Origin: Phormidium tanganyikae FI6-MK23
Lineage (GTDB): Bacteria; Cyanobacteriota; Cyanobacteriia; Leptolyngbyales; Leptolyngbyaceae
DNA length: 64,000 nucleotides
Reading direction: 5' to 3'
NCBI GenBank assembly: GCA_019359175.1
Contig: JAHHHU010000017.1
Location: 1 to 64,000 of the forward strand
A model generated the notes under the pieces. That model saw nothing but the letters and a program-made list of their open reading frames with translations, had not been told where the DNA came from and did not search any database. The position numbers and the translations under genes are program-made. Below, piece by piece: positions 34,282 to 36,471 of the stretch (within the stretch, counting starts at the first letter, position 1; the number at the start of each line of letters is the position of its first letter).

Positions 34282-34357
34282 CGCAGTTTCCTCAATACTG
34301 TTCCCATTTACTCTAACGTTTTGGCTCAAAATGGCTTATGTCTGTAAGAGTATTTTT

Positions 34358-34723
34358 ATGCGAATTCAAAAGGCTTGGGTGACGATCGCGGCGGTTCAGT
34401 TTAATCGATCGGTGCAGTTTTATCGCCATTTATTCCAGCAAGAACCGCAAGTTTTCGCGCCTCAGAAGTATGCCGAGTTCGAGACGTTTGGGATTCGATT
34501 GGGAATTTATCGCCCGACTGCGGAAGAGTCGCCAGAGAAAGCGCCGATTACATTATTTCCAGCGGTGAGTTTGTGTGTGCAGATTGAGAATTTGGAAAGT
34601 TCGATCGAACATCTCGATCGAGTCGATGCCTATGTGGGTGAGATTCGATCGGTTTCTCATGGACGAGAGGCATATGCTTACGATCCCGATGGCAATCGCA
34701 TTATTTTATATGAGCCAGCTTGA
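34358..34723 (+). CDS. VOC/glyoxalase superfamily protein
   Basis: A 121-residue protein with the vicinal-oxygen-chelate fold of two beta-alpha-beta-beta-beta units: VTIAAVQFNRSVQFYRHLFQ at the start and AYAYDPDGNRIILYEP at the end, the usual second-metal strand. The substrate cannot be told. It starts 77 bp from fba on the opposite strand. Its stop runs directly into a region of 21-bp tandem repeats. Confidence 0.8.
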   Translation: MRIQKAWVTIAAVQFNRSVQFYRHLFQQEPQVFAPQKYAEFETFGIRLGIYRPTAEESPEKAPITLFPAVSLCVQIENLESSIEHLDRVDAYVGEIRSVSHGREAYAYDPDGNRIILYEPA

Positions 34724-34742
34724 GTGACAGATACCATTTCAT

Positions 34743-34910
34743 TTTGGGATGTCCATTTGTCGTTTTGAGACATCCATTTTCGATTTCGGAATGTCCGTTT
34801 TCAATTTTGGGATGTCTATCTGTTGTTTTAAGACATCCATTTTTGATTTTGGGATACCCATTTTTGATTTCGGGATATTCATTTGCTGCTTCAAGACATT
34901 TGATTTTTGA
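34743..34910. repeat. 21-bp tandem repeat array with alternating complementary units
   Basis: Eight adjacent 21-bp units (34743, 34764, 34785, 34806, 34827, 34848, 34869, 34890; the last is degenerate). Units carry either GGGATGTCC-like or GACATCC-like centres, and these two forms are complementary. Units 1-3 and 4-6 match as a 63-bp higher-order repeat. There are no spacers, so it is not a CRISPR array. An 85-codon open frame runs through it only because 21 is a multiple of three. Confidence 0.85.
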
Positions 34911-35057
34911 TTTCTCTACGTATACACGGACAAATATGCAGAAACAACGCGAAATATTTAACTTTCAGACTCAATAAATAAATAGAAATACGAATCTCAT
35001 TGAGGAGAAAGCGGAATTAGCTTAGAGAAAACTTAAATCAATTGGGGCAACACTCCT

Positions 35058-35477
35058 ATGGCACTGAAAACACGCGGCTCTTCTGCGATCGACAAAGCAC
35101 AACGACGGTTAGCTTTGCTCAAATCGATCAATGAACATCTCGATCTCGGCTACGGGTTAACAACCGACAACTACGCTGGACTGACGGAACAAGCTCGCAC
35201 ATCGCTGGAAATGTACAATACGCTTTTGTCGAGAGTCGATGAAGCCCGCACGAATCTGGAACAAACCGAGAAAGCCCTTTCCGAAATGTCGGAACGAATG
35301 TTGAGCGGAGTTGCTACCAAATACGGTAAATCCAGCATCGAATACAGCAAAGCAGGCGGCTCAAATCGCAAGCGATCGAAAGCTGCTCCTCAACCTTCAG
35401 CCGAAGCACTACCGACGCTGACCGTTGAAAAGAATGGCTCGAAATCTGTTAATGGTCAGTCGGTTTCGACGAATTAA
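35058..35477 (+). CDS. Hypothetical helical protein
   Basis: A 139-residue protein with a helical N-terminal domain (about 1-85: KAQRRLALLKSINEHLDLGYG, TLLSRVDEARTNLEQTEKALSEMSERML) and a basic, Ser/Lys/Pro-rich tail that is probably disordered. No family is recognised. A strong terminator 23 bases after the stop confirms an independent unit. Confidence 0.65.
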   Translation: MALKTRGSSAIDKAQRRLALLKSINEHLDLGYGLTTDNYAGLTEQARTSLEMYNTLLSRVDEARTNLEQTEKALSEMSERMLSGVATKYGKSSIEYSKAGGSNRKRSKAAPQPSAEALPTLTVEKNGSKSVNGQSVSTN

Positions 35478-35500
35478 CCACATCACAACTCACGATCGCG

Positions 35501-35851: not shown

Positions 35852-36073
35852 ATGACAGATCGAGAACAACTCCTACACGAAATTGCTCAAGCTCCTGATG
35901 ATTTGATTCAGGAACTTGTGGCGTTTTTATCTACTGCGAAAGCGCGACGGAATGCTGCGCCTGTCTCTGGTAAACGTCGATCGCCTTCCGCTGCGGTTGT
36001 CGGAAAAGGAGAAACGCTTGGCGATCTAGTCAGTCCAATTGTTGACGAGCAAGAGTGGGAATGCCTGAAGTAA
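35852..36073 (+). CDS. Antitoxin-like small protein (VapB-type partner)
   Basis: A 73-residue protein with a helical N-terminus (REQLLHEIAQAPDDLIQELVAFLSTAKAR, the DUF2281-like opening) and a basic middle KRRSPSAAVVGKG. It overlaps the downstream PIN-domain gene by 13 bp, the usual antitoxin-first arrangement. DNA-binding activity is assumed from position only. Confidence 0.6.
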   Translation: MTDREQLLHEIAQAPDDLIQELVAFLSTAKARRNAAPVSGKRRSPSAAVVGKGETLGDLVSPIVDEQEWECLK

Positions 36074-36471
36074 TTCTCCTCGATACTCATCTCTGGTTTT
36101 GGTTTATTAATCAAGATCTCGATCGCTTTCCGACTGATTGGAACACCCTGATCGAGAATGCTGATCGAGTTGGAGTTTCTCCTGTGTCTTGTTATGAAAT
36201 TGCGCTTGCTCACCAGCGAGGGCGGCTCACTTTACCTTGCTCGGCAGATCAGTGGTTACAAGAAGCATTAGAACCTTCTGGCGTTGTCCTATTTCCGTTA
36301 ACGGCTGAAATCGCCTATCGAGCGGTCAATCTATCTCCAATTCATCGCGACCCGTTCGATCGCTTAATTATTGCAACGTCTTTAGTCTACGAAGCAACGC
36401 TACTCAGTATTGATGGTTTGTTTCCTCAATATCCAGAACTCGTTCCGTATCTCATGCGATCGCAGAAATGA
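36061..36471 (+). CDS. PIN-domain toxin (VapC-like)
   Basis: A 136-residue PIN-domain ribonuclease. The acidic residues of the active site are present: Asp in ILLDTHLWFWF at the start, Glu in VSCYEIALA, and the DPFDRLIIATSL and LLSIDGLF stretches. Family members cleave RNA and are held in check by the adjacent antitoxin. ATG 36061 is chosen because MPEVILLDTH is the family start. It overlaps both neighbours. Confidence 0.85.
   Translation: MPEVILLDTHLWFWFINQDLDRFPTDWNTLIENADRVGVSPVSCYEIALAHQRGRLTLPCSADQWLQEALEPSGVVLFPLTAEIAYRAVNLSPIHRDPFDRLIIATSLVYEATLLSIDGLFPQYPELVPYLMRSQK

Follow-up and report, generated by a model that had tools for sequence, protein, structure and literature searches.

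The locus described here raises the question of whether a short tandem array lying between two genes of Phormidium tanganyikae FI6-MK23 is a gene, a dedicated RNA device, a set of protein-binding sites or a minisatellite. In the whole stretch of DNA analysed (64,000 nucleotides, hereafter the window), TRF at a score of at least 40 returned only two rows, and both came from this array. The first, 34737-34914, has period 63 (2.8 copies at 77% match, 0% indels, score 200); the second starts at the same position and ends at 34884, with period 21 (7.0 copies, 68% match, 3% indels, score 119). TRF and unit listing together placed about 8.5 units of 21 bp, assigned to neither strand, at 34737..34914, arranged in a 63-bp super-period of unit types ABC ABC AB and showing a lag-21 identity of 0.64 over 150 bp. 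Head-to-tail units in the range of about 10-100 bp with detectable identity are what defines a minisatellite, and this array has them. A sequence-only reading had reported eight 21-bp units head to tail after a VOC-family gene; the array is real, but it extends from 34737 to 34914 and starts 6 bp earlier, 14 bp past the stop of the ORF at 34331-34723. The super-period that was claimed is confirmed by the unit types and the TRF period, and the proposed growth by triplication could have taken the form of a duplication of a 63-bp block, which is compatible with that super-period. The same reading was right to dismiss CRISPR, which we ruled out because the 21-bp units are contiguous and near-identical repeats with unique spacers are absent. 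On the plus strand the unit cores are GATGTC (units 1 and 4), GACATC (2 and 5), AATGTC (3), GATACC (6), GATATT (7) and GACATT (8). Complementary cores, said to alternate, do exist, the first pair being GATGTC (34748-34753) and, 21 bp further on, GACATC (34769-34774), with no strand assigned, and these two are partners of each other in the predicted plus-strand fold. However, since the GACAT-type core is confined to the B units (2, 5 and 8), it recurs in every third unit and not in every second.

The upstream neighbour is a VOC-like ORF of 130 aa (34331..34723, plus strand) whose NCBIfam matches are all weak (the FosB model, at E 4.9e-5, scores 23.7 bits where its cut-off is 171) and which has no Pfam match at E<=0.001. 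It has matches in 47 of 58 genomes and in all eight genomes of the genus, our own included. Downstream lies an uncharacterised protein of 139 aa (35058..35477, plus strand), a member of a multi-copy family with 10 matches in its own genome, matches in 22 of the 58 genomes and up to 13 within one relative; it matched nothing in Pfam at E<=0.001 or in NCBIfam at E<=0.01. In genome G017 one array was seen about 1.8 kb upstream of a homologue of this protein. Farther downstream in the window, at 35852-36471, a 73-aa ORF is followed by a PIN-domain protein (Pfam PF01850), an arrangement that resembles a toxin-antitoxin pair. Between the array and the 139-aa gene we found a conserved 3' tail (34945..35040, plus strand) with 83-85% identity over 68-92 bp at the orthologous site of two congeners. 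A search of 58 genomes at E<=0.01 located the tail in three of them; it is single-copy in the strain's own genome, whereas G005 carries array and tail at two loci; this fourth copy, beside the second G005 array, is not followed by the 139-aa gene. The block 34981-35000 was invariant in all four copies, and such a tail, with its invariant 20-bp block, suggests that something nearby may be constrained.

We compared the site after the VOC gene across the genus. A diverged 21-bp array was found there in three of the eight genomes (our own, G005 and G002) and was absent in the other five, the best lag-21 identity over 120 bp after the gene being 0.67, 0.72 and 0.57 in the carriers against 0.33-0.35 in the array-free congeners. 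In each carrier the best match to the 139-aa protein sits immediately past the array. The G002 array was missed by TRF at a score of at least 40 and rests on lag identity, with a lag-63 identity of 0.68 in its post-VOC region; a search for evenly spaced GAYRTC cores also overlooks it, and a blank from that search is no evidence of absence in other genomes. The units of the three arrays differ strongly in sequence and keep the same 21-bp spacing. Variation, which the sequence-only reading proposed to look for between strains, was observed in a species-level comparison, two further species having other units at this site; a unit sequence that differs between relatives at a shared site is again a property of minisatellites. 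The VOC gene tree is poorly resolved and does not group the three carriers, so gain and loss of the array cannot be placed on it. Near the site, copies of an inverted-repeat element of the CCCCTAAATCCCCCA...GGGGGATTTAGGGGG type were noticed by eye in G005 (L037, downstream of the VOC gene) and in G007 (L038).

The search for the same units in the 5.74-Mb genome of the strain itself had a divided outcome: no near-identical second copy of the array was present, but a profile detected a second, diverged array. A 400-kb sample (7% of the genome, with this second array outside it) gave 26 TRF rows at a score of at least 50. If arrays overlapping no ORF of at least 100 aa are taken as intergenic, only two in the sample had at least three copies, with best scores of 111 and 90, and both had a period of 21. 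These two (L221:5048-5158 and L228:1801-1909) are built from other units, so intergenic arrays of period 21 are not unique in this genome, in whose intergenic DNA that period may be favoured. The window array, with its score of 200, exceeded the top intergenic row of the sample (163, a 42-bp unit in 2.0 copies). A repeat of 21/42/84 bp was also seen elsewhere in this genome, inside a 1187-aa ORF (L134:1756-1966).

BLAST of the array against relatives was uninformative, since at E<=10 all but one of 58 genomes 'match', and we used profiles instead: R1, structure-free and built from the first three arrays, was searched in 144 genomes, and the broader R2 was built from seven. Since the G002 array helped to build both, its profile matches are by construction. 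Outside the building loci, R1 matched the second arrays of our own genome and of G005 and two arrays in G017; R2 added a third array in G017 and arrays in G009, G213, G292, G333 and G374. Eight of 42 genomes of the order gave a profile match at E<=0.01, and our own genome and G005 had two arrays each there, as did G009, where one of the two has indels, while G017 had three and G002 one; at the matches in G063, G005:C28:487k, G011 and G059 TRF found no 21-bp array. At E<=0.001, 14 of 388 genomes of the class matched, including G000, G002, G005 and G017. Four more of the 14, G213, G292, G333 and G374, which belong to one family and two genera, had many matches each; 15 stretches were taken from them, and in every one TRF identified an array, with 8.7-15.9 units. 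In the genus of G333, whose genomes are distant and large (mostly 7-10 Mb), a sample of 39 genomes contained 37 with profile matches at E<=1e-6, between 2 and 44 per genome, a figure of counted profile hits and not of individually read arrays. Single hits in G114, G178, G300 and G368 and most weak R1 hits are excluded from the array counts; the arrays counted span at least two families. Read on the minus strand, the unit has two parts: one is A-rich and better conserved (consensus GAAATAACAAAT), the other, of about 8 bp, varies more and in many though not all cases is self-complementary; some cores are exactly GCGATCGC and many are other 8-mers. The kinship of the distant arrays is suggested by the A-rich half of the unit, which is short, so that convergence could explain part of the likeness. 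On these sequence comparisons the window array is not a private slippage product, as that idea is contradicted by relatives both at the same site and dispersed.

Some of the distant arrays carry marks of possible mobility. Four of the 15 arrays L193-L207, namely L196, L199, L201 and L204 from three genomes, have common flanks with inverted ends of the CTACGGTGTACACACAAGT type, which match their inverse over 17-22 bp at 91-100% identity; the other 11 have no such pair. The flanks of L201 and L204, both in G374, are common to the two, and an exact CTACGGTGTACACACAAGT-type end joined to the array start pattern was matched in 1 of 19 genomes of the genus. For the window array, no inverted match between the 800-bp flanks was detected at E<=0.05. 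We rejected a bounded MITE for this locus on that ground, and any mobility of this array itself is putative. DNA similar to the window array was not found in annotated plasmids or phages, nor was DNA similar to L202 and L136 in annotated plasmids; the flank of L199 gave a 47-bp match to one Nostoc plasmid. Turnover of units can be followed at L198 and L202, one locus in two species, where the left 4 kb are about 90% identical and the unit cores are different (GGGTTCGC/GCGATCGC against GCGTACGC), a comparison that fits flanks turning over more slowly than units.

We asked whether pairing between units points to a regulatory or stabilising RNA structure in a transcript running from the VOC-like gene to the 139-aa gene, which we consider distinctly unlikely. 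The suggested row of hairpins did not appear: in the minimum-energy fold of the plus strand, units 1-2 form one small hairpin, followed by a larger, nested structure and by a third stem that is weak. Against dinucleotide shuffles the minus strand gave a moderate result (z -2.62, 2 of 200 as good), but the plus strand, on which both genes lie, was weak (z -1.75, 11 of 200). When the columns of the units were permuted with the tandem order kept, none of 100 controls was as stable as the window array on the minus strand, and 5 of 100 were on the plus strand, so pairing is present in it; the corresponding numbers on the minus and plus strands were 1 and 2 for G005 and 5 and 8 for G002. Complementarity between the cores of neighbouring units was equalled by 8 of 300 permutations in the window, by 45 in G005 and by 152, an ordinary value, in G002. 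The excess over controls that holds in the window is no rule of the family, since at most 5 of 100 controls were as stable in only 6 of 24 arrays on the minus-equivalent strand (leaving 18 without excess) and in 5 of 24 on the other. Core complementarity was significant (at most 15 of 300 permutations) in 6 of the 24 arrays, the window included, and the best self-complementary 8-mer fell in the same unit phase in 15; these 24-array tests leave out G009:C92, G192 and G140, and their pairing and phase counts are confounded by shared ancestry. The gene contexts and orientations of the arrays differ, terminator-like sites were looked for and not found, and a known structured RNA was rejected, as Rfam gave no match at E<=1 in 34300-35500.

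The constancy of the 21-bp length allows two further explanations. As 21 bp is two turns of DNA, each unit could be a site in a helically phased array for, for example, a nucleoid, partition or transposase protein, and the spacing is indeed held despite divergence: in the window 54 of 147 adjacent-unit sites differ with 8 of 8 units in phase, and over 24 arrays 4662 such sites include 746 differences, with 243 of 246 units in phase. For these counts, however, each array was divided every 21 bp between bounds that we had chosen, and TRF reported indels in L134, L135 and L157. The common unit phase of the best self-complementary 8-mer in 15 of 24 arrays also speaks for binding, as does the period of 21 in the two intergenic arrays of the 400-kb sample, whose units are different; on the other side stand the great unit differences between loci and inside the window array, non-palindromic cores such as GAGTTCGC, the small share of arrays with significant core complementarity, the shared ancestry behind the phase count, and a Pfam scan of eight ORFs in and around the array that named only the PIN protein and a DeoC/LacD protein. 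We regard such binding as quite improbable for the window array, and the broader proposal that the bipartite 21-bp repeats of cyanobacteria are helix-phased binding or structure-forming arrays, copied by small inverted-repeat elements, as unlikely; this proposal supposes a conserved A-rich part and an often self-complementary 8-bp core of drifting sequence. Equally, 21 bp is seven codons, and the array might encode on its minus strand a heptad-repeat peptide, (K/E)(I/V/T)xN(G/A)xP, which appears to us very unlikely. In 63 units from seven arrays (6 of 69 units with fewer than 9 of 21 consensus matches having been dropped) this frame contains a single stop, and it is stop-free inside 20 of 23 other arrays, but column-shuffled units average 1.1 stops, so that an open frame is expected from composition. 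Several frames are open simultaneously, because one stop-free unit opens an entire array, and there are in-array stops in L137, L195 and L199. The pooled pN/pS is 0.83, and although one array (G017_b) reaches 0.48 in the minus-strand frame, two other frames have lower pooled values, 0.55 with 28 stops and 0.57 with 6, so the ratio does not point to the minus-strand frame in particular. The ORF of L136 starts with a signal-like stretch, MQRKLFLNHLGLTAIAAP, and matches TIGR03057, the heptad model of NCBIfam, at E 4.1e-9; its sister copy carries a stop, and calling it a protein is not supported by these sequences. L136:6248-6631 and L137, both G017 arrays, were seen by eye to have a common left flank with a signal-like leader (MQRKLFLNHLGLTAIAAP and MHRKLFLTLLGFTAIAAP, respectively). 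The open stretch of the window has no ATG ahead of its units. Neither purifying selection nor a deficit of stops was found, and a protein-coding heptad repeat was rejected, in agreement with the initial description of the array as not plainly coding.

We thus favour, as the likely reading, that the window array is a non-coding, dispersed, fast-turnover intergenic minisatellite belonging to a cyanobacterial 21-bp repeat family, and probably neither a gene nor a dedicated RNA device. Such arrays lie at several intergenic loci per genome in several genomes. Arrays of this family would spread through duplication or transposition of short elements; slippage or unequal recombination, working in steps of 21 or 63 bp, would afterwards lengthen, shorten and homogenise them. 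The self-complementary cores may be a side effect of mutation in the repeats, and neighbouring genes would be affected, if at all, only incidentally. A putative function of the array is likewise most likely incidental. Several observations count against the minisatellite reading. Self-pairing is above control level in the window array and its two orthologues, and units that have diverged widely are still 21 bp long, for which frame or helical phasing could be alternatives. The missing inverted repeat at the window array, the invariant block of the tail, the possible convergence of the distant arrays and the failure of TRF to call the G002 array weigh on the same side. These sequence data do not discriminate between step-wise duplication, frame and helical phasing. 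What looked like a one-off curiosity becomes a recurrent class of intergenic repeats in cyanobacteria; we found no description of the family in the literature searched, which does not establish its absence from print. If the 21-bp phasing and the drifting self-complementary core are maintained, the arrays offer a natural test of neutral debris against phased binding or structure arrays. They may also be of use for typing strains, and annotation could mistake their open frames for hypothetical heptad proteins.

The mechanism proposed for the window array, minisatellite growth with dispersal, seems ordinary, and the family itself seems undescribed. Nostoc genomes contain heptanucleotide STRR repeats and small dispersed repeats, which are likewise cyanobacterial and dispersed but differ from the 21-bp arrays in unit length and sequence. 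The octamer GCGATCGC, known as HIP1, equals some unit cores, whereas HIP1 itself is scattered and not a tandem array. The X-X-X-Leu-X-X-Gly heptad of TIGR03057 shares its seven-residue period with the matching L136 ORF, but the heptads of L136 mostly have no Leu, and coding selection was not found. A promoter triplication described for the Anabaena WA102 genome (PMC4907049) is much longer. Nearest in kind is BrickBuilt of Porphyromonas gingivalis, a minisatellite/MITE of imperfect 23-nt direct repeats in intergenic DNA (PMC4596501). BrickBuilt differs from the cyanobacterial arrays in sequence, period and phylum; it gave no BLASTn match outside its species (PMC4596501), whereas the cyanobacterial arrays span at least two families; some of its copies have short terminal inverted repeats, whereas at the window array we found a tail and no inverted ends; and no promoter activity is known for the cyanobacterial arrays. 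Both consist of short, imperfect, spacer-free intergenic direct repeats, with conserved and non-conserved positions within the unit, and the likeness extends to leader or tail flanks, several copies per genome, the same loci in several strains, predicted stem-loops and, on some copies, the inverted ends (PMC4596501). By this analogy, BrickBuilt appears comparable to the cyanobacterial 21-bp arrays and is their nearest parallel.
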